Part shown: in pieces, positions 3,684 to 31,684 of the stretch | Position numbering within the stretch: position 1 is the stretch's first letter | How the letters are laid out: each line of letters begins with the position of its first letter | Virus record (IMG/VR): IMGVR_UViG_3300044981_000169 | Coordinates: 1-34,655 of that record | Reading direction: 5' to 3' (one strand) | Source of the DNA: a virus | Length of the DNA: 34,655 nucleotides | Translations under genes and position numbers: made by a program | Notes under the pieces: model-generated | Told to the model about the DNA's origin: nothing | Seen by the model: only the letters and a program-made list of their open reading frames with translations | Databases searched by the model: none

Positions 3684-3949
3684 CACTCACTCTCCTTTCG
3701 TTTCGCGCGCCACTCGTCGTACTCGACCTTCTGGCTGTCGCCGTCTTCGCCCCAGCGGGCGTTGAGCGCCTGTTCCATCTTCAGATCCTCGAAGTCGATG
3801 GCCCAGGCGACCGCCTGTTCTGGCGTCTTGACTTCGTTTTCGTCGAGAAACGCCAGCAGCTCGGCGTCGCTAAAGCACTCGTCGATCGACGTGCACGAGC
3901 CGCGGCCCACAAGGCGGTGTTTCCGGATGGCTTCAACTCGGGCGTCCAT
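3683..3949 (-). CDS. Hypothetical protein
   Basis: 88 aa. ATG 3949 overlaps the TAA of the methyltransferase gene (TAATG) and has AAAGGAG 6 nt upstream. Predicted largely helical, with a central segment SDAELLAFLDENEVKTPEQA suggesting a helix-turn-helix-like or coiled fold. Ends in a charged KRKESE tail. Function unknown; translated with the methyltransferase. Confidence 0.6.
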   Translation of the reverse strand: MDARVEAIRKHRLVGRGSCTSIDECFSDAELLAFLDENEVKTPEQAVAWAIDFEDLKMEQALNARWGEDGDSQKVEYDEWRAKRKESE

Positions 3950-4725
3950 TACAAACTCCTTTCGATGACCAGCATGGCCACATTGACGTTGGTCCCGCTC
4001 TCCGCGAACGATCCTTCGGGGAGCGGCTCGTAGTACCCGCCGCTCTCCTCGGCGATCGGTTTCAGGATTTCCTGTTGCCGGGGCCCGTTCGCGCACAGGG
4101 CGACCAGCCGTCCGCCCGGCTTCAGAAACCCCTGAGCGTGGCGGATGTGCTTGATGTCGCTCCCTTTCTCGAACGGCGGGTTCATCACGATCCGGTCGAA
4201 CTGGCCCAGATCGCCGTTGCAGGTGAGAAAGTCGGAGCAACGCACGTCCAGCTTCGGGTACCTGGCCCGCAGGGCGTCCGCCAGTGTGTGATTGATCTCA
4301 ACGGCGACTGTGCGACCGTCCGGCGGATTGCCGGTGAATCCCGAACTGTTCAGCATGAATGCCTTGTCGATCAGCGCGCCGGTGCCGGCGGAGGGCTCGA
4401 GCACGTCCTGGCCCGGCCCGATGTCCGCGGCCTCGATCACCCGCTCGGCCACCTCGGGCGGGGTATTGAACCGACAGAACTTCTTCCTTTCGTCGGTGAC
4501 CTGGCCCGTGTCGCAGGCCGCGTCGATCGCCTGTTGCGGGCTGCCGGCGAACACGTGACCGGCCAGCTTGCGATTCCACTTGCCCCCGATCGCCTTGAGA
4601 ACCTTGTCGACCTTCACGTAGGTCTCACGGTCGAGTTGCTGCGGCAACTTCAGTACGTTGCCGTCGATGGCAGACCGCGCGAGAATGTCGCGCACATCAC
4701 TGGGAACTGTTTTCGTGTGGCTCAT
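3949..4725 (-). CDS. SAM-dependent DNA methyltransferase, N6-adenine type
   Basis: 258 aa from ATG 4725, with GGAGG 9 nt upstream. Residues 25-70 form an N-terminal helper domain (LDRETYVKVDKVLKAIGGKW). The class I methyltransferase core has FNTPPEVAERVI (86-97), motif I LEPSAGTG (109-116) and motif IV NPPF (182-185), the NPPF type that methylates exocyclic amino groups, usually N6-adenine in DNA. No target-recognition domain or restriction partner is visible, so it fits an orphan phage methylase that protects phage DNA or marks its own genome. The first 29 nt overlap the DUF3560 gene. Confidence 0.85.
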   Translation of the reverse strand: MSHTKTVPSDVRDILARSAIDGNVLKLPQQLDRETYVKVDKVLKAIGGKWNRKLAGHVFAGSPQQAIDAACDTGQVTDERKKFCRFNTPPEVAERVIEAADIGPGQDVLEPSAGTGALIDKAFMLNSSGFTGNPPDGRTVAVEINHTLADALRARYPKLDVRCSDFLTCNGDLGQFDRIVMNPPFEKGSDIKHIRHAQGFLKPGGRLVALCANGPRQQEILKPIAEESGGYYEPLPEGSFAESGTNVNVAMLVIERSL

Positions 4726-5569
4726 GGCTTTCTGCCTCCTGTCCAAAATGTTTCTTGACGATCGCCTCGGCATAGTAGCGCGCCGCGTTGCTCAGGTGCC
4801 TCTGCCACGCCCCTTCGCGGGGTGACCATCGCCAGCCGCTCGATTTGAGATCAGCCCGCACGGCTTCACTGGGCTTACCGGGGAAGAAAATCTGCACCCG
4901 GTTTTCGGCGTTGTTCGAAACGATCTCGACTTCGCCGATCTTGACCGACTCAACCGGAGTCTCTTCAGCTTTCTGGAAGGACGCTTCCAGATGCTTCAGT
5001 CGCTCGCGGACTCGCCGGATGTTCGCGTTGTTATTTGAAAGAACGTAGGCCGGGATTCTGGCGTACGGCTTGAGGTGATATGGGCAAATATGGGCCAGCG
5101 TCCGGATTTCTTTCTGCGTCCACTCGGACAGTCCCAGCTCTGCCAGCTTGACGGCGAGGGCCGGGTCATCGCCGGACAGCTTGGCTTTGCGCAGCTTCGC
5201 GTTGTCGGACTTGACCTGGCTCTGAAACGATTCCAGCTCGGCGACCTTCTCCTTCAGCTTCACGACCGCCTCGGGATCATCACTGCTGATCGCGTCATTC
5301 GATTCGGCAGACGCGGCCCGCTGGTCGTAATACGCTGCCTTGTCGCTGGCCTCGACCGACTTCCGCATGTCGTTGTCTGCCCGTTCGAGCAAGGCCCGGT
5401 GCCGCTTTTCGGAATGATGGCCGACGAGCACCGGTTGACCGCACAGGCCACGGACCGTCTGAATGTTATGGCTGTTGAATCGCGCTGTGGCCTCGGCCCG
5501 GTTCTTCTCGGCCAGCTCCTCAAAGCGTTCGATCCGGTTTTGTCGACGTTCCTCGTAATCGCTTCTCAT
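4697..5569 (-). CDS. DUF3560 domain protein
   Basis: 290 aa from ATG 5569 with TAGGAG 8 nt upstream; the upstream gene's stop lies in this site. Residues 1-110 match my memory of DUF3560 (YEERRQNRIERFEELAEK, then GQPVLVGHHSEKRHR). A Lys/Glu coiled coil follows (about 110-145). The C-terminal 60 aa have GWRWSPREGAWQRHLS, a Trp-rich module often found at the ends of such plasmid and phage proteins. The family occurs on mobile elements and its biochemical role is unknown. Its overlap with the methyltransferase suggests a joint role in DNA modification or anti-restriction. Confidence 0.75.
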   Translation of the reverse strand: MRSDYEERRQNRIERFEELAEKNRAEATARFNSHNIQTVRGLCGQPVLVGHHSEKRHRALLERADNDMRKSVEASDKAAYYDQRAASAESNDAISSDDPEAVVKLKEKVAELESFQSQVKSDNAKLRKAKLSGDDPALAVKLAELGLSEWTQKEIRTLAHICPYHLKPYARIPAYVLSNNNANIRRVRERLKHLEASFQKAEETPVESVKIGEVEIVSNNAENRVQIFFPGKPSEAVRADLKSSGWRWSPREGAWQRHLSNAARYYAEAIVKKHFGQEAESHEPHENSSQ

Positions 5570-5579
5570 GGTTTGTCTC

Positions 5580-6149
5580 CTACGCATACCAAGATCTTGA
5601 AACCGCTTCGCCTTCCTCAATCGGAGTGCCGGAGCCGAAATCAAACGACACGCCCCACGGCCCGATCATTTTCCGAATCGGTTCGCCGATGAAGTCGTCT
5701 TTCTTCGGCCGAACCCGGTCGCACATGAATCCTTCTGATCCGGGAACCGACTTGCCGCCGATCTCGCGAATCACTACGCCTCGCGCGCCGAACCTATCGA
5801 CGACCTGATAGAACTCGGCGTTGGTCTGATCGTAGCCCCACGAGTAATGCAGGATCGTTCCGACCTTAATCTGGGCAGCCATCTTTTCGATTCTGGCCTG
5901 CCGATCGGTTTTGCGGGTGACCGCCGCCACCTCGGCCGAATCCTCGGCCTGCTTCAGTTTCGCGAGGTATGTGTCGCGGGCCTGGGTCGTCTTGAAACTG
6001 TAGTGGGCGAATGGCTTGCGGGCCTTGCCGCGCCAGGCCTTCAGAATGAGCATGGGCGCGCCGTCGTGATCGATGACCGACATAACAAACTTGAGTTTCT
6101 TGTAGGTCTGGGCATCGGCCGGCGGACCCGAGTGAATACTGAATCGCAT
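5580..6149 (-). CDS. Conserved-type hypothetical protein with HYSWGYDQTN motif
   Basis: 189 aa from ATG 6149, GGAG 8 nt upstream. Residues 1-75 are basic and mixed alpha/beta. From about 98 the sequence LHYSWGYDQTNAEFYQVVDRFG resembles hypothetical proteins I recall from plasmids and phages next to DUF3560-like genes. The C-terminal part is Gly-rich. No catalytic motif seen. The gene ends 10 nt before the DUF3560 gene and so probably shares its transcript. Confidence 0.6.
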   Translation of the reverse strand: MRFSIHSGPPADAQTYKKLKFVMSVIDHDGAPMLILKAWRGKARKPFAHYSFKTTQARDTYLAKLKQAEDSAEVAAVTRKTDRQARIEKMAAQIKVGTILHYSWGYDQTNAEFYQVVDRFGARGVVIREIGGKSVPGSEGFMCDRVRPKKDDFIGEPIRKMIGPWGVSFDFGSGTPIEEGEAVSRSWYA

Positions 6150-9505: not shown

Positions 9506-9810
9506 TTCGGATCTTCCCCTTTGTCTTCCCACTCATAATCGGGAATCAATGTCCCCTGTTTGGTTTCTGCGAACGAATCGCTCGCCAAAAACATTGAAAC
9601 GCCGACAACGCCATCCCGGCAGCAAACAGTCACATGCTCGACGATGGTTTCGGGCCACGGAAGATCGAGCGGAATCTGGTGATGCGCGCGCCGATCCGGA
9701 TCGGTACCCGTTTTACTCCGCAGCTTTTCTCCATGTGCGGCGATGAATTCCAGGGGGATAAAGACAATTCGTTTGCGTCGCTCGCGAATGCACTTCGGGG
9801 CCTCAGACAT
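9502..9810 (-). CDS. Hypothetical protein
   Basis: 102 aa from ATG 9810, overlapping the last 8 nt of the portal gene. GGAG lies 13 nt upstream, a rather long spacing. Basic start (CIRERRKRIVFIPLEFIA), a pair VCCRDG in the middle and an acidic end. No family recognised. Coupled to the membrane protein gene by ATGA. Confidence 0.55.
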   Translation of the reverse strand: MSEAPKCIRERRKRIVFIPLEFIAAHGEKLRSKTGTDPDRRAHHQIPLDLPWPETIVEHVTVCCRDGVVGVSMFLASDSFAETKQGTLIPDYEWEDKGEDPK

Positions 9811-12088
9811 GAGGATTGCTTGTCTCCATGAAGTCTTTCAGCACCGCTCGGGTGGCTTCGGGCAGGTCTTCGCAGGTGGCCAGTGACGCGGCCAAGGCGG
9901 CGCGAGACGTGGATTCGTTGATGGACTCCCCCATGGGCCGCGCGTGGTCAAACGGGTCGATCTTGCGACGGGCGTTGATGAACGCGGCCGCGGCTTTGTC
10001 GATGATGTTGGCCGGATGCAGGGCATTGGCGGCAGCGGCAATGTGCAGCTTCGCACCGTGAAGAATCGGGGCAACTCCCCACATGATTCCGTCGTCGCCC
10101 TTCAGGCTGCCATCCGCGATTGAAACGATCTTGCGTTTTTTCCCGTCGGATGTTTCCAAATGCACATCGCGGCCGGATTGGAGCGCCTTCTGCACAGTAG
10201 TATTCACACGCTTTTTGAACTCATGCAGATCGCGAGTTCCGGATTTGTCGGTGATTTTGTCGGCATGATCTGCCGTGATCGTGACTGCTTTTCCGGAGGC
10301 AAAGTCTCCCGGTGCCGATGCTCCACCGTTCCCGCTGGAAAATTGGCCATTTGATTTGTCGTGATTTGGATTGCCGCCGGCTTCCCCGAGATACCCGCGA
10401 TTCCCCGCCAGTCCCTCCGCCTCCGGCCGCTTGCCGTCATGTCCCAGAAACTGCCGCTGGCCTGGCTGACCGGGTTGTCCCGCCCGGCGCACCTGTGCAT
10501 TGGGCTCTGTCCCATCGGCGACAGCCGCGTTGGGATCGGCCTGCTTCTCGCTCCGCTCCCGTTCGACTTTCTCTTTCTCCTGCTCGTCAAACCCCTCCTG
10601 CGAACGACGCGTGTCCGTCGAGATGATGCCGTCGTCGTTGAGCACCTTGAGCCGGTCAGTCTCAGTTTTCTTGTCGCGGCCGATCGGCGCCGTGGGCACC
10701 GCCTGGATATCGACCAGGTGCTTGAGGTCGTTCCACGAGAGCCCGAGCCGATTGAAACGGCCCGCCAATGCGGCCAGCTTCAACACCCGCATCATTACCT
10801 TCCGGTGCCGGTTCCCCTGCTGCTGTTGTCGGTGCAGCACGCAAAGGGCGAAGGGCGACTCGGCCACCAAGGCGCTGGCGAAGTTCTGGGCCGAATAATC
10901 CCCCGAGATCATTCCCTCGGGCATCTGCCAGCGGACCCCGATCGTGCGGAGGACAAGCTGGGCCACGAGCTGGAAGTTGGGGGCGTTGCTGTTCCCCATG
11001 GGTCCGTACTGGAAATCCATCCCGTCGGCGATATTCACGATCCGGCCGGACTCGTGGCGCTGCACATTACTCATCTGTCCCGGCTGCTGGACGCTGTAGC
11101 GGGCCACCTGAAAGTCGGTCTTCTGCGTGTTGAACGCCTGGATATTGCTCTGCTGGGTCCCCTTCTGGAACTTGCGGATGTAGGCGATCGACGCCTGCAG
11201 CGCCGCCCCGTCGGCCATGTTGCGGATCAGCTTGCGGGCCTGGTCGACGTTCATTGTGATCGGGTAGAAGTCCGACAGGCCGCGTTTGATCACCCGGTCG
11301 ACGTTGCACTTCGTGTGCACGACCTGCCGCGAATTCAGATATTCTGACGCATGAAAGACGTCGGTGTAGACGTTGTATCCCAGCACCTGCGTCGTATCGT
11401 CCCCGAGCGTATGCACCCCGAACATCCATGACGAGCCGGGCGAATCGCTCGAGTTGATGTGAGTGGCCACGGGATCGGCATAATCTCGCCCGGCCTCGGT
11501 GCAGTATTCCGGCTCGATCGTTTTGGCGATGGCGTGGCCGGCGGTGTCCTCGGGCATCACGTGCACGAAGTCTTCGCCGTCGCGGAGATCCCGGCGGAAC
11601 AGCTCGCGCTCGAGGTCCCAGTATTCGTTTTCCTCGACGAACTCGGCGATGACCTGCTGGGCCTTGCGGATGGTGCGGGGCCCGACGGTCTGATCCGGGC
11701 GCGGCACGGCTTTGTAAGTGAAGCCCTTCCCAACCACATAGTTGACAAGTGATTCGAGCACGGCCTGGGCATGCGGAGACGTGTCGGCCAGAAGCCGGGC
11801 CGTCCCCCGAATGATGTTGAGCTCCCACTCGGTGCGGAAGATCGGCCAGTTCATGCCGCCGCGGCGATCGCCGATGAACGAGGCAGGGGCGAGCGCCGAC
11901 GCATTCAGCGCCGGGTCTTGCAGGATCCAGCGAGGATCGACGTAATCGCCCACCGTCTCCCGGAGCGGCATCGTCGCATATTCCGGCGACTTGGATTCCT
12001 TCAGCGCGGAGATCTCGTGTTCCAGCAGCAGGCAATCGCGCTCAGCTTCGAGGGCCTCGCGCCGTTTCATGGCGGATGATCTTGACAT
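9803..12088 (-). CDS. Phage portal protein, lambda family, with C-terminal extension
   Basis: 761 aa, longer than the usual 500-550. Residues 75-520 carry typical lambda-type portal features: NIIRGTARLLADTSPHAQAVLESLVNYVVG, then GLSDFYPITMNVDQARKL and MISGDYSAQNFASALVAE. The portal is the dodecameric channel at one capsid vertex through which DNA enters and leaves. From about 550 the sequence is Gly/Asn-rich with HDKSNGQF (about 576-583), then a 170-aa extension with a compact alpha/beta part and a helical tail. ATG 12088 has no ribosome site but a TTGAC-like promoter ends 9 nt upstream. Confidence 0.9.
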   Translation of the reverse strand: MSRSSAMKRREALEAERDCLLLEHEISALKESKSPEYATMPLRETVGDYVDPRWILQDPALNASALAPASFIGDRRGGMNWPIFRTEWELNIIRGTARLLADTSPHAQAVLESLVNYVVGKGFTYKAVPRPDQTVGPRTIRKAQQVIAEFVEENEYWDLERELFRRDLRDGEDFVHVMPEDTAGHAIAKTIEPEYCTEAGRDYADPVATHINSSDSPGSSWMFGVHTLGDDTTQVLGYNVYTDVFHASEYLNSRQVVHTKCNVDRVIKRGLSDFYPITMNVDQARKLIRNMADGAALQASIAYIRKFQKGTQQSNIQAFNTQKTDFQVARYSVQQPGQMSNVQRHESGRIVNIADGMDFQYGPMGNSNAPNFQLVAQLVLRTIGVRWQMPEGMISGDYSAQNFASALVAESPFALCVLHRQQQQGNRHRKVMMRVLKLAALAGRFNRLGLSWNDLKHLVDIQAVPTAPIGRDKKTETDRLKVLNDDGIISTDTRRSQEGFDEQEKEKVERERSEKQADPNAAVADGTEPNAQVRRAGQPGQPGQRQFLGHDGKRPEAEGLAGNRGYLGEAGGNPNHDKSNGQFSSGNGGASAPGDFASGKAVTITADHADKITDKSGTRDLHEFKKRVNTTVQKALQSGRDVHLETSDGKKRKIVSIADGSLKGDDGIMWGVAPILHGAKLHIAAAANALHPANIIDKAAAAFINARRKIDPFDHARPMGESINESTSRAALAASLATCEDLPEATRAVLKDFMETSNPHV

Positions 12089-12410: not shown

Positions 12411-12679
12411 GGCGGTTCTGTCGCCCCCAGCGCAGCCGCCAACTGATCAGCCGGAATCCCCGTGAGCGCCTGCACGATATCGGCGGGCGGCCGGTTCCGT
12501 TCCTGTTCTTCGGCGATCCTCTGTCGGGCAAACTCGGCGGCGAGATCAAACTCCTTTTGGGTAAAGTCCCCGCGGCTCATCAGGAGCATGACGATGGCCG
12601 TCAGCTTGGACTCAAAGACGACCAGGCGACGATTGATCTCAGCGAGCTGGACGGTCGGTGGTGGATCGAAGAGACTCAT
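12407..12679 (-). CDS. Small hypothetical protein, helical
   Basis: 90 aa. ATG 12679 is in an ATGA overlap with GGAG 5 nt upstream. Residues 10-60 are a long amphipathic helix (AEINRRLVVFESKLTAIVMLLM...EFDLAAEFARQRIAEEQERN), suitable for coiled-coil pairing. In this position (just before the portal) a head-assembly or gp W-like role is possible but not shown. Confidence 0.6.
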   Translation of the reverse strand: MSLFDPPPTVQLAEINRRLVVFESKLTAIVMLLMSRGDFTQKEFDLAAEFARQRIAEEQERNRPPADIVQALTGIPADQLAAALGATEPP

Positions 12680-13020
12680 TCCCTCTCCAAACGGTCCAGC
12701 AGTCCGGCCCTGCCTGCTGCGGCAATGAAATCGAATGACGATTTCTGATTTGCCAGTACTTTTGGGTGCTTCATTAGTTCAACCAACACGTGGTTCGAAA
12801 CTCCCTCAAGGAAATTAATGCAGGTGATAATTCGATTCGAAATTTGCTGCGCATCGGCTTGAGTAGGAGCAAGACTACTCAGTCCGCGAATCGTAGATCG
12901 ATCACTGAAAAGACGGGCAATGTTCCGACCGAATGAATCTCGAATCATTAAATTCAAAACGTTATCCGGATCTCCAATAGTGCAGATCGGATTCTTCCAG
13001 GGTTCGCCGAATTCGCTCAT
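12676..13020 (-). CDS. Hypothetical protein
   Basis: 114 aa from ATG 13020 in an ATGA overlap, GGAG 7 nt upstream. The gene is visibly more AT-rich than its neighbours. Helical protein with hydrophobic segments (RIITCINFLEGVSNHVLVELM) that are too short and polar to be membrane helices. No family recognised; the base composition hints at recent acquisition. Confidence 0.55.
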   Translation of the reverse strand: MSEFGEPWKNPICTIGDPDNVLNLMIRDSFGRNIARLFSDRSTIRGLSSLAPTQADAQQISNRIITCINFLEGVSNHVLVELMKHPKVLANQKSSFDFIAAAGRAGLLDRLERE

Positions 13021-13790
13021 GCCACCGCTCCGCGCTCCAGCGCATCAACCGGCTTAATCGCCATTCCCGGTCGCGGCTGCCCGACAATGTACGCGGCCCG
13101 GTTGCAGTCCGCCAGACTGGTCCGCCGCACCTCCAGGTGATGGCACTCGATGCGGGGGTCGAAGTAACTCTTGATCCCCAGACGCTTCAGCCGCTCGAAG
13201 AAGCTCATGTCCTCGCCCAGATGCCGTACGGAGTCAAAAGGCTTTTCTCCCAGCTCGGCGAATACGCGGTCGTAGACCGAGGCCCGGACCATGAGACAGC
13301 CAGCGCCGGCCGCATCGACCTGCACGAGTTCGTTCCCCAGCACGCCTTCGCCGGTGGCGTTCCAGTCGCCGATGACGCGCCCCAAACCGGTGTTCTCGTT
13401 GAACTGATAGAGCACAGGCAGATAAGGCGGCGTCTTGAACGTGTAGACCCCGCACACGACGTCGACCTCGAAGGTGTTCAGCCGGTCGAGCATTCTTGCG
13501 GTCAGATCAGGTTCAAACCAGTGATCCGTGTCGACCATCAGCAGCCAGTCGCCGCGCATCTCGCCGACCAACTCATTGCGGGCCGCGCTGTGGAAGCTCT
13601 TTTGCGTCCAGGTGCGGTGCACGTATTCGTCGGGACCGCACAGGATCTCGGCGTTGTACGCGCACATCTCACCCCAGGCGATCGTGAACGGTGTCAGCAT
13701 GGCCGGGACGCCGGCAGGCATGGCCACCGTTCCGAGGCAGCGGCGGTGACGGAGGCGGGGATAGCGGCCGGATTGGAGCACGGGGTTCAT
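13017..13790 (-). CDS. GT-A type glycosyltransferase (family 2-like)
   Basis: 257 aa. Residues 82-93 are LLMVDTDHWFEP: a DTD motif of the DxD type that binds metal and nucleotide sugar. Further on are VDVVCGVYTFK, AGAGCLMVRASVYDRV, then GEDMSFFERLKRLG and ECHHLEV, with acidic and His positions typical of GT-A enzymes. It most likely moves a sugar to a capsid protein, DNA base or host surface glycan; the acceptor cannot be told. ATG 13790 has no ribosome site. It closes the modification cassette 13017-16886. Confidence 0.75.
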   Translation of the reverse strand: MNPVLQSGRYPRLRHRRCLGTVAMPAGVPAMLTPFTIAWGEMCAYNAEILCGPDEYVHRTWTQKSFHSAARNELVGEMRGDWLLMVDTDHWFEPDLTARMLDRLNTFEVDVVCGVYTFKTPPYLPVLYQFNENTGLGRVIGDWNATGEGVLGNELVQVDAAGAGCLMVRASVYDRVFAELGEKPFDSVRHLGEDMSFFERLKRLGIKSYFDPRIECHHLEVRRTSLADCNRAAYIVGQPRPGMAIKPVDALERGAVA

Positions 13791-13836
13791 GTTTAATGCC
13801 AGTTTTTGAAAGTGGGGGATGATCCGGCGGTAAGAA

Positions 13837-14136
13837 TTATCGGAGCGGCCTCGCAGTGAAACTGAATCCGGGGCCGCACGTGATCGCGCCGCTCGTGTAA
13901 CACCCGGCGAGCCAGCACCGGCAGTTGGGAGGATGGCGGGACAGAACGCAATGGGTCAGGGTGCCATCGTACGGTGTCAGGTACGGGGAATCCTTCGGCT
14001 CCGATTCGATCCGCTTTGGTTCTGGCGCGCCGTTCCCAGGTAGGGGAAGTCCCACGGTCGCAATGGCCGCGGCGCCCCCGATCAAGCGACCGGCCCGGGA
14101 GAAGAATCCGCGTCGGGTTGTGCGTTCGTTGGTCAT
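13837..14136 (-). CDS. Small exported protein with twin-arginine signal
   Basis: 99 aa. ATG 14136 is in an ATGA overlap, GGAG 6 nt upstream. Residues 5-14 contain T-T-R-R-G-F-F, matching the S/T-R-R-x-F-L-K Tat signal, followed by a hydrophobic Ala/Gly stretch (GGAAAIATVGLPLP) and a possible cleavage site after GNGA. The mature part has five Cys (CVLSRHPPNCRCWLAGCY...CGPG) and so may hold metal or disulfides. Tat substrates are exported folded, often with cofactors. Gene is coupled to the QueC-like enzyme. Confidence 0.65.
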   Translation of the reverse strand: MTNERTTRRGFFSRAGRLIGGAAAIATVGLPLPGNGAPEPKRIESEPKDSPYLTPYDGTLTHCVLSRHPPNCRCWLAGCYTSGAITCGPGFSFTARPLR

Positions 14137-14783
14137 CGGCGACTCCGCGTTGTTTTGCGTCGTTTGGCTGGTCGCTTATTGCCAGCCTTGCTGTTCTCGC
14201 TGTCGTCGCGCTCAATTCGCCAGAGCGCGGCCTGGTGCGTCCGACACGGGACGCATGTCCCGCACGGCGTTCCCGATTTTTTGGAAGCTTTCGGGTTCTC
14301 GCAATACCAGCACAGATCGTAGAGCTCGGCTGCCTTCAGCCTGCGAATCACGTCCTCTTTGCGCTCCCATTCGAGCGGACAAACCAAATTGCCGGTCTTA
14401 TGAGTGAGCGTCTGAAGCGTCGAGAACATTTCAAAAACGAAGTTGCGGTAGTGCCACACGTCGTCGCCGCGAATCCAACCGGTGGCCAGGTCTTCCTCGT
14501 CTTTCAGGAATGCCTGCGCGTTGGGAATCCACAAGTTCGGTTGCTCAGTGCCGCTACAACCCGGAACTGAGAATTGACCATTGTGGTCGATCGTCAAAAT
14601 GGTGTGATCAATCCGACAGCCCCGTCCACGCAGTCGCTTCAGAATTGCCGCGCGGGCCTTCGTGAGCTCCTGTTTGGCTGGTACGTTCACGTGGTCAATG
14701 CTGATAGCGCGGACATCACCCTTCGGCAATGCCTCAAGCATGGCCAGCGTGGAATCACATCCGCCAGACCAGAGGATCAGCAT
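14133..14783 (-). CDS. QueC-like PP-loop enzyme (7-cyano-7-deazaguanine synthase family)
   Basis: 216 aa. ATG 14783 follows GGAGG at 10 nt. The PP-loop SGGCDST (residues 6-12) binds ATP. The end has C-W-Y-C (158-161) and CGTCVPC (174-180), the Cys cluster of QueC, which holds zinc. QueC makes preQ0 from 7-carboxy-7-deazaguanine. In phages the pathway feeds deazaguanine DNA modification, and QueC-like proteins also occur in defence systems where a protein is the target. The partners QueD, QueE, FolE and a DNA transglycosylase are not seen in the window, so the substrate is open. A basic tail (KRPAKRRKTTRSRR) is unusual. Confidence 0.8.
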   Translation of the reverse strand: MLILWSGGCDSTLAMLEALPKGDVRAISIDHVNVPAKQELTKARAAILKRLRGRGCRIDHTILTIDHNGQFSVPGCSGTEQPNLWIPNAQAFLKDEEDLATGWIRGDDVWHYRNFVFEMFSTLQTLTHKTGNLVCPLEWERKEDVIRRLKAAELYDLCWYCENPKASKKSGTPCGTCVPCRTHQAALWRIERDDSENSKAGNKRPAKRRKTTRSRR

Positions 14784-15373
14784 TCGTTCGTGCCCTCCGG
14801 CCACGCCCCAACAAGTGCCACGACGCCCCACCCCTTGCAAAATCCGTAATCAATGGGGTCATGCCCGAGAACCTGCAGGCCCGCCGCGTCACACCAGCCG
14901 AGCATCATGTCGATCGTGACGGGCCGGGGATGATTTTTTGGAACGCCGGGCACATGTTCAGCCGTCTCGCCCTGTTCTGCCGCGGTCCGATAATCCTCCG
15001 GGCAGGTGATGACGATCCGACCACCTGGCTTCACGATGGCCGACGTATTGCGCAGGGCCAAGGCCACGTCGTCATCGCTGAAGTGTTCCAGGATGTCCCC
15101 GAGAATGGCCACATCAAAGCAGGCGTGACAGGGGAACGGCTTGCGAACGTCGTGAATGCGATCAGCCGCCGTGGCGCGGTTGTTCGAAGCGGACCAGCGG
15201 TTGATGTCCACGTTGACGGCCCCAAAGTCCCGGCGCAAGAGGGCCAGGTCGATGTCGCATCCGATGTTCACCGCCAGTTGCCCGCGGCCGATCTGGGCAC
15301 GCTGGAACTTGTATTGCGGCAGGTTGCGGACCGCCGCCAGAACTTCGTCGAGCGTTGGTTCGCGTTCAGGCAA
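14777..15373 (-). CDS. SAM-dependent methyltransferase
   Basis: 198 aa from TTG 15373, chosen because GGAGG lies 6 nt upstream and no ATG or GTG fits; it overlaps the glycosyltransferase end by 8 nt. Class I fold: LAVNIGCDID (33-42, motif I), ILGDILEHFSDDD (90-102, motif II/III) and VKPGGRIVITCP (114-125). This resembles small-molecule or sugar methyltransferases more than DNA methylases, since no NPPY or PC motif is present. It sits in the cassette with glycosyltransferases and QueC-like enzyme, so a sugar or modified base is a likely acceptor. Confidence 0.8.
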   Translation of the reverse strand: MPEREPTLDEVLAAVRNLPQYKFQRAQIGRGQLAVNIGCDIDLALLRRDFGAVNVDINRWSASNNRATAADRIHDVRKPFPCHACFDVAILGDILEHFSDDDVALALRNTSAIVKPGGRIVITCPEDYRTAAEQGETAEHVPGVPKNHPRPVTIDMMLGWCDAAGLQVLGHDPIDYGFCKGWGVVALVGAWPEGTNEC

Positions 15374-16886
15374 GGGGGGCCTCCGTGGCAGCGCCTACGG
15401 CCGATGGTTCTTCAGGCCAGATCCGCTCGAGGAATTCCTTGCGGGTGACACGCGGCGTATTCTGTTCGGTCAGGAATCTCTGGACATCCTGGACCATCGT
15501 GTTTTCCCAGTCGAAGCGCTGCCGGGCCCATGGCATCATCTCGGCGCGGATCGCTTCGGCCCATTCGCGGTCCCGGGCATACCCCAGAATCGCCTGGACG
15601 AACCGGGCGCGGACCATGTGCTGCGTGCCGTCTTTGGCCATCGGGTCGCCATCGACGAATGTGCCGTATTCGACGTTGTGACCGACGGCCCAGAAGCGAT
15701 TGGTGATGGGGATGGCACCGAGGGCCTGCGCCAGCATACACGTGCAGCAGCTCGTCTCCGTGAACGTCGTTGGGTAAACCCACATCGACGACTGCGCGAA
15801 CTCGAGCCAGAGCTGCGGCTGGTTGATCCGGCCGTGCCAGTGCACGTTCGGCGTCGATTCGATCAGGTCGGTGATCCGCTTCTTCATGTTCTCCTGGACG
15901 CTGGCCACCTGCCCGTATTGCATCGGGTACTTGTATCGGACGAAGTTCACGTCGATCGGCGTATCGTCAGGAACGGTTTCTCCGCTGGTGATATGGAACT
16001 TCTCTCGGGCGATTCCGGCACGGGTCTTCTCGTTAAGGCAGACCCCGTTGCGGACCTGAGCGGCCCCGATTACCTTGTCCCAGTTGTCGAACCCGTAGAA
16101 GCAGTGCAGCTCGAGCGCGGGTTCGAACTCGACGGCCCGGCGAAAGATGTGCAGGAGCGCCTCGAGGCCCCGGTCGGGGGAGCTGGCCCAGATGAGGCGC
16201 ATCGGGTTACGCAGGCCGTTCCAGGCCTTGAATTGGTCGTCGGCTGCTTTGCCAAGCGCGATTTGCTCGACCGGCTCATCACCGACGTAGCCCACGATGG
16301 GATCATGGGGCAGCGCGAACAGCTTCTCGATGCGATCGACTTCGATCCCGTTGGAGCTGACATCGATCTTGTCCGCCATGAACGGGAAGGCTTCGGCGAG
16401 ATATTGTGCGTGCGTCGGGCAGAGGGCCCAGATCTTGTCGAACCGGGCGCAGCGCTCTTCGGTGAACGCCGGCGTACCATCGGCGTTAAAGTAAACAACG
16501 TCTTCAGCCACGAGTTGCCACGTCTGCGCGATCCTGGTGTCTTCGCGCGTCGGAATGCAGTCACCCACGCTGGGCTGCCGGAAGATGATCCAGTGGCCCG
16601 GGTCCTTCAGGTTCCATTCGATTTTGTCGGTGGGGACACCGGGCTTGAGCTGCGCCGGATCTTTGCAGAGCTCCTTGAAGTGCCGCCATTTGACCGGGTG
16701 CCCGTCATTCGGATCGTCCGTGCAGTCGGCAGGAATCGGGGCATAGCTGGTGACGTCGTGGCCACGACGGGCCAGGCGGCGGGCGAGCTCGATTTGTGCC
16801 GTTTCGCTTCCTCCGATTCCTTGAGTCTCGGGGTTCCGCCAGTCCCATTCCTCGAACGCTGAAAAAGTCGCGATCACGATGCGCAT
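15366..16886 (-). CDS. GT-B glycosyltransferase (family 4-like)
   Basis: 506 aa from ATG 16886, GGTGACC-like site upstream and 4 nt after the previous stop. Rossmann start MRIVIATFSAF, then GIGGSETAQIELARRLARRGHDVTSY: the Gly-rich donor-binding loop of GT4 enzymes. Middle residues SSNGIEVDRIEKL and LIWASSPDRGLEALL, then TFTETSCCTCMLAQALGAIP match the second domain with its E-x7-E-like region. It transfers sugar from a nucleotide sugar. No membrane segment, so cytoplasmic. First enzyme of a coupled five-gene cassette. Confidence 0.85.
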   Translation of the reverse strand: MRIVIATFSAFEEWDWRNPETQGIGGSETAQIELARRLARRGHDVTSYAPIPADCTDDPNDGHPVKWRHFKELCKDPAQLKPGVPTDKIEWNLKDPGHWIIFRQPSVGDCIPTREDTRIAQTWQLVAEDVVYFNADGTPAFTEERCARFDKIWALCPTHAQYLAEAFPFMADKIDVSSNGIEVDRIEKLFALPHDPIVGYVGDEPVEQIALGKAADDQFKAWNGLRNPMRLIWASSPDRGLEALLHIFRRAVEFEPALELHCFYGFDNWDKVIGAAQVRNGVCLNEKTRAGIAREKFHITSGETVPDDTPIDVNFVRYKYPMQYGQVASVQENMKKRITDLIESTPNVHWHGRINQPQLWLEFAQSSMWVYPTTFTETSCCTCMLAQALGAIPITNRFWAVGHNVEYGTFVDGDPMAKDGTQHMVRARFVQAILGYARDREWAEAIRAEMMPWARQRFDWENTMVQDVQRFLTEQNTPRVTRKEFLERIWPEEPSAVGAATEAPLA

Positions 16887-17399: not shown

Positions 17400-17618
17400 T
17401 CACCAAATTTGCACAACCTCGTGCATCTCGTGTTTGTCATGAACCACCTTTCCGGGATACTGCTCAAATCGCCAGCCGTTCCACCAATCGCCTTCGTAGT
17501 AATGGGCAAAAAACACCTTGGAGACACCGGATATCTCCCCCATTTTTTCTCCCAGCAGGACCACGGCATCGGGCGGTAGTTTCTGCAAGCGCGCGATTAG
17601 ATCGGCGACGGTTCTCAT
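17400..17618 (-). CDS. Small conserved-type phage protein
   Basis: 72 aa. ATG 17618 overlaps the terminase stop (TGATG). It begins RTVADLIARLQKLPPDAVVLL, the layout of a widespread small phage family that starts with a helix and 'LPPDA.V' and has no assigned function. It ends with a Trp/Tyr-rich part (YEGDWWNGWRFEQYPGK). Confidence 0.6.
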   Translation of the reverse strand: MRTVADLIARLQKLPPDAVVLLGEKMGEISGVSKVFFAHYYEGDWWNGWRFEQYPGKVVHDKHEMHEVVQIW

Positions 17619-19078
17619 CAAAAATCAATCGCCTCCTCCTCCGGAACCGTATTGATCGCCGACCCCTGCTCCGCCAGCCTCACCGCCATTTCCAGTGCAT
17701 CGGGCCCATCGTCATGCGCGCTCTTGTCCGGGAACATCCGCAACTGCTTTACGAGCTCGGTGCAGCCTTCGCAGCGCACGAATCGCAACACCTTGCGTGC
17801 CAGGTGCCGGTCGAGGCGCAGGATGCGGACCGCCTTATTTTCCGTGTTCACGATCTGGCTCAGCCGTAGCGGCGGCCGCTGTCGGATCTGACAGGTCAGG
17901 TCGAACACCTCGGAGAGCACTTCCTGAAAGCCGTTCGATTCGATGCCGAGAAACGTCGGGTTCATCGAGTCGCCAACCTTGATCACGTCGTCGACGATCT
18001 TGCTGGGGGGACGCCGGGCCAGATCGGCCCACACGTAAATCAGCCCCCGCGATACGCCGATAAAGACGATCGCCGAGAAATCCCCCGGCCTGGCTTCTTT
18101 GCCAATGCTCGGGTCCACCGCGATCGCCGACACATCGAATGTCGCCGGGAGGGCGTCGACCCAGATGTGATCCCCGAAATAGTGATCGGGGAACATGGCC
18201 CCTTCGTGACGCCCGGGCTTCTGCTGATAGAGCGCGTTCCAGATCCAGGGGGACATCTCTGCCCGGGTCTTCTCGAGTTGCGCCAGTGGAAACCTGTGCG
18301 GCCACAGGGGCTCACCGGGCTGTCTTCCCAGTGCGTCGTCGGCTTCGGCGATGGCCGGCAGCCTCAGGCGCCTTACCGGGTTCAATGAGTCGATCTTGGA
18401 GTTCCGGATCAGGCGTCCCGAGACGTCTTCTTCGTGCCAGCGGGTCGAAACAATGACGACACAGCCCCCGGGTTCGAGGCGGGGATGCACGTCTCCCTGG
18501 TACCAAGTCCACTGCTTCTCGCGCTCCGATTCGGAACCGGCCTGTTCGTGCCCCTTGATCGGGTCGTCGATGATGATCAGATGGCCGCCCCGCCCTTGGA
18601 TGGCGGTACCGGCCCCAGCGGTCAGCATCCCCCCCTCGTGGTCCGCGAGATCCCAGTGGTTCACGGCTCGGGAGTCTCCGCGAACGTGCATCCCGAAAAC
18701 TGCGGGCCCGTGCTCGGTCATCACGTCGCGGGCCTTCCGGCCGTACGTTGCCGCCAGGTCCGCCGTGTTCATGCACAGGAGGCAGCGGTTCTCGGGGAAT
18801 GTCCCCAAGTACCATGCGGGCAGGTATCGGCAGATCAGCTCGGATTTCCCGTGCCGGGGCGGGGCCTCGATGATGAGCACGTTGGGCCCGACGCCGCTTT
18901 GGCCGGCTCGGATCGTTTGAATGACCGCCGCGTCAATGAGCGACAGGTGTGCCGCCATGATCCAGGCGTATCGCAGGTTCCGGCTGGCGTGGCGAGCGAA
19001 CAGAGCCGGGGTCGAGCTGGCCTCGATCAGCTTGGTTTCCGGGCTTTTCTCGGGCGTCTTGGCATCCATGACAGGCAT
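17618..19078 (-). CDS. terL: Terminase large subunit
   Basis: 486 aa, usual length. ATPase: Walker A EAPPRHGKSE (71-80) and Walker B HLIIIDDP (166-173). C-terminal RNase H-like nuclease: AVDPSIG (Asp322), LGIESNG (Glu380) and DDGPDALEMA (Asp456-460). It packages and cuts phage DNA with the small subunit and docks on the portal. ATG 19078 has no ribosome site but a TTGACG/TATACC pair ends 7 nt before it. It lies a few kb downstream of the small subunit gene rather than next to it; seven genes intervene. Confidence 0.95.
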   Translation of the reverse strand: MPVMDAKTPEKSPETKLIEASSTPALFARHASRNLRYAWIMAAHLSLIDAAVIQTIRAGQSGVGPNVLIIEAPPRHGKSELICRYLPAWYLGTFPENRCLLCMNTADLAATYGRKARDVMTEHGPAVFGMHVRGDSRAVNHWDLADHEGGMLTAGAGTAIQGRGGHLIIIDDPIKGHEQAGSESEREKQWTWYQGDVHPRLEPGGCVVIVSTRWHEEDVSGRLIRNSKIDSLNPVRRLRLPAIAEADDALGRQPGEPLWPHRFPLAQLEKTRAEMSPWIWNALYQQKPGRHEGAMFPDHYFGDHIWVDALPATFDVSAIAVDPSIGKEARPGDFSAIVFIGVSRGLIYVWADLARRPPSKIVDDVIKVGDSMNPTFLGIESNGFQEVLSEVFDLTCQIRQRPPLRLSQIVNTENKAVRILRLDRHLARKVLRFVRCEGCTELVKQLRMFPDKSAHDDGPDALEMAVRLAEQGSAINTVPEEEAIDF

Positions 19079-30020: not shown

Positions 30021-30231
30021 TGGCGCCCTCCTTGTCGGCCGCGATAGCCGCCTCGAATTCCATCAGTCGCTCGCGGGCCTGCGCCTCGTAGAAGGCCCGT
30101 CCGATCTGCTTCTCGCCCCACGAGATCAGCCAAACGTTGTTTGGAATCGCATTCGGATCGCAGACGGCCCGGCCGTGCGCCGAGTAAAGCGTGTGAACTC
30201 CGAAGCAGGTGCGTTTGACGATGGCGGCCAT
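30016..30231 (-). CDS. Small hypothetical protein
   Basis: 71 aa. ATG 30231 overlaps the TAA of the ligase-like gene (TAATG), GGAGG 10 nt upstream. Mixed fold, then an acidic helix (FYEAQARERLMEFEAAIAADKE). No family recognised. Its stop lies in the presumed ATT start of the next gene. Confidence 0.6.
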   Translation of the reverse strand: MAAIVKRTCFGVHTLYSAHGRAVCDPNAIPNNVWLISWGEKQIGRAFYEAQARERLMEFEAAIAADKEGAN

Positions 30232-30839
30232 TACGTTCCGGCCTCCGCATTCATGGCATTCCGCGTCAGCCCGAAATCCCTCTTCTTGATCTTCACCATG
30301 CTCCCGTCGGCGCGGTGCCAGACGATGCCCTCGATGCTGATCTGCGACAGCCAGTCGCGAATTGCGTCGAACGTGCGCGGACAGCTCGGATAGATCACGG
30401 CTCCGTGCCGCACGAGAATGTGATCCGGTAAACCCTCGGGATTGCGGTTGATCTTCGGTCCGCACAATTCGTAAGTGCCGTCAACCAGGTCGCCGCGGCC
30501 CTCGCAGAATCCGTCGCTCAAGAGACATTCGCCAACGGCAAACGCCTCGCGGAACCATCGGTCATCCGGCCGATCGCCGACTGGTAGCCATCCCGGATGA
30601 TGACCACTGACAGGATCAGGCTCTTGCGCCGGCTCAAATCCCGGTGGCGGCGTCTTCCCCTGCTTGGCGTCATAACGCTTGTAGAGCACGCCGCCGCGAA
30701 TCATGCAGCAGGTGCCGTCCCACTTGCGCGTAGCGACTCCATCGCCAGCGACGACCCATTCGGCCCCCGGCACGATCTCGTCGCGCACCAGCCGATCGCC
30801 GTCGTAATTCCGCTGAAACAGGCTGATAATCTTCTTCAT
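30231..30839 (-). CDS. RNA-ligase-like nucleotidyltransferase
   Basis: 202 aa from ATG 30839, GGAGG 8 nt upstream. Motif I TRKWDG (37-42, Lys39 would carry AMP), then YELCGP (motif III/IIIa, 123-128), IEGIVWH (motif IV, 169-175) and VKIKKRDFGL (motif V, 182-191). These are the motifs of covalent nucleotidyltransferases that join RNA or DNA ends. The C-terminal domain of DNA ligases is missing, as in small phage RNA ligases. It could repair host-cleaved tRNA; no kinase/phosphatase partner is next to it. Confidence 0.8.
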   Translation of the reverse strand: MKKIISLFQRNYDGDRLVRDEIVPGAEWVVAGDGVATRKWDGTCCMIRGGVLYKRYDAKQGKTPPPGFEPAQEPDPVSGHHPGWLPVGDRPDDRWFREAFAVGECLLSDGFCEGRGDLVDGTYELCGPKINRNPEGLPDHILVRHGAVIYPSCPRTFDAIRDWLSQISIEGIVWHRADGSMVKIKKRDFGLTRNAMNAEAGT

Positions 30840-31684
30840 GTCGATCCCTCCCCGCTTTCGAGTTTCTCCTGCAATCCCGGACTCAGCCGCTTCCACAGAT
30901 TGACGCCGGCCAGCTCCTCGAGTTTGTCGGTCACCACTTCGTAATCGCGGAACGTGGCACCCTCGGGAGGCTCCTCATTCGGGACAAGCCAGCTCTGCAT
31001 GGCGAACTCATTGCCATGCTGCACCAGCACGGCTTTGGCGCAGTAGGGCGGGACCTGCTGATGGTTCAGGCCGATTGACTTCACCGTGTAGGTCGCGTCC
31101 CGCTTGCCCCAGGAACGCGGATAATCGTCCGGGGTCCAGACCGTCAGGGTCACAACCCAGACGACAACGCCCGGCTTGCAGAGCGACTGAATGTAGTCCT
31201 CGAGGTGCCGCCAGAGCTGCTCGTTGAGAGTTTTGTTCTGCGGAAATGCGTTGCGGATCGTAAAGGTGGCCCGCATTCGTTCGGCCGTGTCGCTGTGGTT
31301 GTCGGCGCGGGCTGCGTGTCCACGGTCGTAGAGGTGCGTGAAGCCGTTGTAATCGTCGGGGCTCGACGGAAATTCTTTCTGCTCGTGCTCATCGTGATGA
31401 AAGCCCAGATCGCCGCGCTTCACTTCGCCGAACGATTTCGAAGTGAGCCGCTCGAGCGTCCAGTCGGGGACGCGCCTCGCGCCGTTCCAGCTCAGGGCCC
31501 AGCCGCCGGGCATCGGGTCCCACTCCCTCGTTGGCGCGAAATCAGAGAGCTGGTAGTGAGGCGGCTCGGCGCCGCATGACGGGCGCAGCACCCAGCCGAC
31601 GACGAAGCCGAACGAGATGATGGCCACGGCGAGGGCGAGATAGCGCAGCTTGTCGTCGCGGTCGAAACCGGGTTGAGGCGTCAT
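30836..31684 (-). CDS. Membrane-anchored DNA/RNA non-specific nuclease (NUC1/EndA type)
   Basis: 282 aa from ATG 31684, GGAGG 8 nt upstream. Residues 13-33 are a signal/anchor helix. The nuclease domain shows RVPDWTLERLT (71-81), the hallmark DRGH (120-123, His general base), then RNAFPQNKTLNEQLW with Asn154 and Glu162, typical for the beta-beta-alpha metal nucleases. The protein would act at the membrane or outside it. Possible roles: degrade incoming or host DNA, or nutrient release. Coupled to the ligase-like gene by ATGA. Confidence 0.85.
   Translation of the reverse strand: MTPQPGFDRDDKLRYLALAVAIISFGFVVGWVLRPSCGAEPPHYQLSDFAPTREWDPMPGGWALSWNGARRVPDWTLERLTSKSFGEVKRGDLGFHHDEHEQKEFPSSPDDYNGFTHLYDRGHAARADNHSDTAERMRATFTIRNAFPQNKTLNEQLWRHLEDYIQSLCKPGVVVWVVTLTVWTPDDYPRSWGKRDATYTVKSIGLNHQQVPPYCAKAVLVQHGNEFAMQSWLVPNEEPPEGATFRDYEVVTDKLEELAGVNLWKRLSPGLQEKLESGEGST

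Follow-up and report, generated by a model that had tools for sequence, protein, structure and literature searches.

A 34,655-base virus record (IMG/VR IMGVR_UViG_3300044981_000169; hereafter the window, analysed at full length) carries two glycosyltransferase genes (GT1 and GT2) and a methyltransferase gene (MT) between the genes for the terminase large subunit (TerL) and the portal protein. On balance, these three genes probably form a virion-glycosylation cassette, into which two accessory genes, encoding a QueC-like enzyme and a small protein with a putative twin-arginine translocation (Tat) signal, are inserted between MT and GT2. The arrangement, pointed out in a preliminary description of this DNA, is real and unusual, and our analyses probably support a conserved three-gene virion-sugar cassette with a separate, orphan QueC-like gene.

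Organization of the locus

The five genes and their flanks are as follows.

15366..16886, minus strand: GT1, glycosyltransferase, GT4/GT1-like (Pfam PF13439 Glyco_transf_4, 35.3 bits); first gene of the core cassette
14777..15373, minus strand: MT, class I S-adenosylmethionine (SAM) methyltransferase (PF13489 Methyltransf_23, 33.7 bits); second core gene
14133..14783, minus strand: QueC-like N-type ATP pyrophosphatase, 216 aa (PF06508, 35.0 bits; phrog_1550, 96.6 bits); accessory insert
13837..14136, minus strand: small protein with a putative Tat signal, the mature part about 57 aa long and rich in Cys (sequence inspection); accessory insert
13017..13790, minus strand: GT2, GT-A fold glycosyltransferase (PF00535 Glycos_transf_2, 34.8 bits; DTDH and GED motifs); last core gene
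17618..19078, minus strand: TerL, terminase large subunit (phrog_38, 304 bits); upstream flank
9803..12088, minus strand: portal protein (phrog_21, 110 bits); downstream flank

Along the minus strand the genes follow one another as GT1, MT, QueC-like, Tat-signal protein and GT2, with overlaps of 8 nt (GT1/MT), 7 nt (MT/QueC-like) and 4 nt (QueC-like/Tat) and a 46-nt gap before GT2. MT starts with TTG, preceded by GGAGG, and GGAG-type sites precede the QueC-like and Tat-signal genes. The adjacency, coordinates, overlaps of 4 to 8 nt, gap and position between TerL and portal were thus as previously described. The gene identities proposed there were likewise borne out for GT1, MT, the QueC-like protein and GT2, which exceed the curated Pfam cut-offs, while the Tat label derives from an RRGFFS motif followed by an Ala/Gly-rich hydrophobic stretch (mean hydropathy 1.24). 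The G+C content at third codon positions (GC3) of the QueC-like gene is 0.67, against 0.75–0.81 for TerL, portal and the three core genes. A 568-aa plus-strand open reading frame (ORF) opposite GT1 was discarded as a gene because homologues support GT1.

Recurrence of GT1, MT and GT2

Searching IMG/VR with GT1 alone returned one locus (L007), in which GT1 and GT2 adjoin just after the portal gene. Its GT2 protein was aligned with that of the window, and a search with this alignment retrieved 64 loci. All counts of distinct loci given here refer to cassettes whose GT2 proteins are less than 90% identical, with the window included (n = 36). Profile searches found GT1 beside GT2 and on the same strand in 35 of them, the remaining locus (L035) being cut by a contig edge. 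MT was present in 28/36, again on the same strand; with few exceptions it lies between the two glycosyltransferase genes, and in nine loci it is fused to GT1 as a single ORF. Eight distinct loci contained GT1 and GT2 with no detected MT homologue; one of these (L070) has an FkbM-type methyltransferase in the place of MT. Fusion and overlap were seen across at least two virus lineages, which speaks for a shared function. The fusions, the gene order and the spread across clearly different virus lineages indicate that GT1-MT-GT2 is a real functional unit. A rearranged cassette also occurs, with an MT-GT2 fusion in a single ORF followed by GT1 (L053:6777-9064).

The preliminary description treated the five genes as one pathway and proposed examining their co-occurrence in related genomes. 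The single pathway is not supported by this comparison: GT1, MT and GT2 recur together, whereas the QueC-like gene joins the cassette only in the window and the Tat-signal gene does not recur. A limited check of the literature found no description of the GT1-MT-GT2 unit. If our reading is true, a fixed unit shared by unrelated environmental phages would constitute a transferable virion-glycan system.

Directly 3' of GT2, two lineages encode a small protein (about 110–155 aa) whose gene often overlaps GT2, in 17 and 9 distinct loci, respectively. These GT2-coupled proteins are candidate glycan acceptors, and the lineages that carry them offer material in which to look for one. They fall into two families, one starting MKHQQRATLQQM... 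(17 distinct loci) and the other MATNSTPVVAW... (9), with examples in L033, L039, L042, L043, L045, L046, L050 and L055-L059. The corresponding place in the window holds the following ORF, which is unlike the small proteins of the other phages.

12676..13020, minus strand: 114-aa ORF, no family match; 4-nt overlap with the end of GT2; GC3 0.47

Predicted function of the core cassette

Domain assignments make GT1 a GT4-type glycosyltransferase, GT2 a GT-A fold enzyme with DxD and GED motifs, and MT a SAM-dependent methyltransferase. The predicted model of GT2 (mean predicted local distance difference test score, pLDDT, 83) matched A197 of Sulfolobus turreted icosahedral virus (STIV; 2c0n) with a Z score of 17.2 and a root-mean-square deviation (rmsd) of 2.5 over 162/191 residues, at 18% identity. 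Further matches were the LH3 glycosyltransferase region, yeast Mnn9 and mimivirus R699; matches within one Z unit were treated as tied. GT1 had no sequence match in the PDB. For STIV, A197 is essential, and its presumed target is the major capsid protein (MCP); the source describes no GT1 or MT linked to it (PMC10551542). Like GT2, A197 is viral and has a GT-A fold, but it belongs to an archaeal virus and its sequence is distant.

The genomic context also points to the virion. Portal or MCP genes were recognised in 9/27 cassette records searched, in every case on the same strand as the cassette, and the nearest of them lies 0.6–10.5 kb away in these nine records. In the record of L066 (G023), the frame of the major head protein contains an in-frame TAG (15271-16227), possibly a stop-codon reassignment or a sequencing error. 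Phage glycosyltransferases of the mycobacteriophages Che8, Corndog and Myrna modify capsid and tail tube proteins, as stated in passages of PMC12363180 and PMC11256854 that cite Freeman 2023. The window resembles these systems in encoding its glycosyltransferases among structural genes, in the interval between TerL and portal. It differs from them in having a fixed GT1-MT-GT2 unit that includes a methyltransferase, often fused to GT1 elsewhere, and is known from genes alone; tblastn searches with GT1 or GT2 gave no mycobacteriophage match.

From these data we infer both a virion acceptor and sugar methylation: the core genes would furnish a head-associated virion protein with a methylated glycan. 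GT1 and GT2, expressed late, would transfer sugars from host nucleotide-sugars onto that protein and extend the chain, and MT would O-methylate one of its sugars. The QueC-like protein, an N-type ATP pyrophosphatase, would act independently: we presume that it activates a carboxylate by adenylation and couples it to an amine-type acceptor. For the Tat-signal protein, export would be expected, and we found no evidence tying it to the other four genes.

In one related phage, the region L044:2271-3952 combines a GT1-MT fusion cassette with genes for a UDP-sugar dehydrogenase and a hexapeptide acyltransferase and with further GT2-family ORFs, possibly a complete sugar pathway within a single phage. 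In L064, a GHMP kinase is encoded near the cassette.

Several observations weigh against virion glycosylation. Head genes were recognised in only nine of the 27 records (PHROG portal and MCP searches), since the structural proteins of many others belong to different head families and escaped recognition. Motif I of MT is degenerate (NIGCDID), so that its activity is not certain; the window has nothing that corresponds to the small GT2-coupled proteins of the 17 and 9 loci; and the overlaps in the window suggest that the QueC-like and Tat-signal genes are likely at least co-expressed with the cassette. Furthermore, DNA, lipid or the host surface may serve as acceptor for the predicted glycosyltransferases.

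Phage glycosyltransferase genes with a role in host-surface modification and superinfection exclusion are well known. GT1, GT2 and MT could alter an envelope glycan and so exclude superinfecting phages, as in O-antigen conversion, and GT2 does resemble the cell-wall glycosyltransferases TarP and WrtF, at lower Z. However, neither the two glycosyltransferases nor MT contains a strongly hydrophobic segment, no flippase or polymerase occurs among the annotated window genes (part of the ORFs were scanned), and the cassette occupies the late packaging and head region here and lies near head genes in several phages. We therefore regard host-surface modification as unlikely, though worth keeping in view, and virion glycosylation as the preferred reading.

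The QueC-like and Tat-signal genes as probable inserts

The QueC-like family (phrog_1550) had no match in the 27 cassette records searched whole, and no cassette other than that of the window carries a QueC-like gene among the 36 distinct loci. Conversely, the cassette is lacking in the 20 other QueC-like records, bar two weak partial GT2 matches, so family and cassette occur together in the window only. The complete five-gene set was found nowhere else. Other genes fill the site between MT and GT2 in other phages: a HAD-type phosphatase and another ORF in L036, an unrelated ORF in L030, and another gene in L070. The QueC-like and Tat-signal genes thus look like separate genes inserted into the core unit in the window phage.

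The Tat-signal protein, which starts MTNER, matched no family, and neither named phages nor IMG/VR yielded a relative. A check of all the loci retrieved for a Tat-like small protein turned up only that of the window.

The tight coupling, with overlaps of 7 and 4 nt, is nevertheless what would be expected if the QueC-like enzyme belonged to the cassette, forming an amide or amidine on a sugar carboxylate in an ATP-dependent reaction that resembles those of WbpG-type amidotransferases, and yielding an amide-bearing glycan. Sugars are the substrates of one PF06508 cluster, the WbpG group (PMC13329287), and the UDP-sugar dehydrogenase of L044 lies near one related cassette. But QueC-like relatives elsewhere lack the cassette and cassettes lack the QueC-like gene, we recognised no enzyme in the window that would form a uronate, and the nearest folds are Cap9 and QueC. 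A sugar amide is accordingly quite improbable.

A separate clade of phage QueC-like proteins

Relatives of the QueC-like protein were found in SP-15, in large Pseudomonas, Erwinia and Vibrio phages, in some 18 IMG/VR loci, SP-15 itself among them, and in one bacterial metagenome-assembled genome. A single-protein scan of IMG/VR with the window protein gave no relatives, and a first alignment of five members was too diverse as scan query. The phylogeny proposed in the preliminary description placed 17 of these proteins, including that of the window, in one clade (support 100/98), apart from canonical QueC (98/97), QatC (100/99) and Cap9, in a maximum-likelihood tree that has some long branches and is rooted at the midpoint only. 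Hutinet et al. 2019 (PMC6884629) had already put singleton phage proteins of this kind, SP-15 included, to one side and regarded them as probably a distinct subfamily of the N-type ATP pyrophosphatases. A 2026 survey of PF06508 covers the largest clusters, and phage singletons are not treated in the sections seen (PMC13329287). The clade is an orphan noted in 2019, which tree, model and changed pocket now separate from QueC, QatC and Cap9. Among the singletons SP-15, Muddy, ECML-4 and SFP10, the SP-15 protein falls in the clade of the window protein; the window protein differs from the others in lying inside a glycosyltransferase cassette and in its basic C-terminal tail.

The predicted model (mean pLDDT 88.5) was closest to Cap9 among solved structures (9nto_B; Z 19.5, rmsd 2.5, 172/181 residues aligned), followed by QueC (Z 16.7) and QatC (Z 13.8); the Muddy ATPase was a further structural match. 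Aligning homologues to check the active residues, as had also been proposed, gave a divided answer. The ATP loop (SGGCDS, residues 6-11) and the zinc cysteines (C161, C174, C177 and C180) are invariant or nearly so among 16 members, whereas the base-recognition motifs YxQxHxxE, VPxRN and YPDC occur neither in the window protein nor in the phage clade when aligned with E. coli and B. subtilis QueC. Where QueC has YPDC, the substrate pocket has GDD.WH, and the adenine-site residues R(x)3F of QueC and QatC are mostly Q(x)3W in the phage clade. In sections of PMC13329287, Y35, R99 and Y131 are given as essential in E. coli QueC. The tail is as basic as first described, with 10 K/R and 1 D/E in the last 21 residues, and is not present in the aligned relatives. 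With these features the protein looks like an active N-type ATP pyrophosphatase, and 7-carboxy-7-deazaguanine is probably not what it acts on.

Canonical QueC shares the PF06508 fold, the SGGxDS loop and the four zinc cysteines, C(x)nCxxCxxC, but the window protein differs in motifs, in clade and in having no pathway neighbours. QatC has N- and C-terminal extensions (about 400 aa) and QatB and QatA/QatD as neighbours; the 216-aa window protein has none of these neighbours and scored 22 bits against an NCBIfam QatC cut-off of 280. Cap9, from type IV CBASS (cyclic-oligonucleotide-based antiphage signalling system), shares the minimal size, ATP loop and zinc cysteines, but belongs to a different clade, and the window protein has neither its base-reading Tyr/Asp (YxDC) nor an adjacent CD-NTase with N-terminal MGGS, its neighbours being MT and the Tat-signal protein.

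QueC-family enzymes are now being found to modify immune proteins. The phage clade might consist of Cap9-like single-domain ligases that modify a host or phage protein, or interfere with QueC-based immunity (type IV CBASS, Qat). The structural proximity to Cap9, the retained ATP loop and zinc cysteines and the wide distribution of the singleton in unrelated phages are consistent with such a role. Nonetheless, Cap9 Y115 and D117, which read deazaguanine, correspond to V109/W110 and H111, although QatC has also lost the Tyr/Asp pair, its reaction being unresolved (PMC13279940). No partner is conserved, and a Met-Gly-starting neighbour, as for Cap9 and QatC substrates, was not conserved in 17 loci. 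We judge this role unlikely, though not negligible. It is rather less likely still that the clade has its own ATP-dependent ligase chemistry within PF06508, with its changed adenine site and substrate pocket, attaching a group other than deazaguanine to a protein or virion glycan as counter-defence, and was recruited here into a mobile virion-glycosylation cassette.

The preliminary description had suggested that the genes build and attach a modified sugar or base. The sugar probably stands, and so does the view that the QueC-like enzyme works outside a deazaguanine DNA pathway. Its other suggestion, a protein or a host-made precursor as substrate of the QueC-like enzyme, may hold: Cap9 is the nearest structure, but the Tyr/Asp pair that reads the base and a partner with an N-terminal glycine are missing. 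In other phages, deazaguanine modification of DNA does involve QueC relatives (PMC6884629), and one singleton relative occurs in SP-15. However, none of 21 QueC-like records contained a match to DNA transglycosylase (TGT/DpdA), and only one contained a match to QueD. The window record itself has no match to QueD (PF01242) or TGT (PF01702), whose absence had been noticed before (FolE and QueE were not searched for). With the QueC motifs missing and the five-gene set confined to the window, a single five-gene pathway to a hypermodified DNA base is very improbable, even though SP-15 is known for its hypermodified thymine, and the five-gene deazaguanine pathway was rejected on the TGT and QueD counts.

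Distant QueC-like loci showed no notable common neighbour except TerL, which is nearby in four (window, L011, L012 and L013), which we read as shared ancestry or a common insertion region. In L011:7992-10255, L012:7986-10191 and L013:4764-8666, from mid-sized phages, a TerL gene related to that of the window (28–33% identity) either follows the QueC-like gene directly or precedes it by 1.6 kb.

Other features of the window

Neither a plasmid search nor a DNA-level phage search gave a match, and a single-protein IMG/VR scan with its TerL found no relatives. Overlapping frames at 3949-4773 and 4697-5644 match parts of much longer phage proteins, of methyltransferase-type and primase-type families, and are possibly truncated genes or the result of a frameshift. 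Positions 30231-30896 match strongly the phage RNA ligase family phrog_14301 (260 bits).

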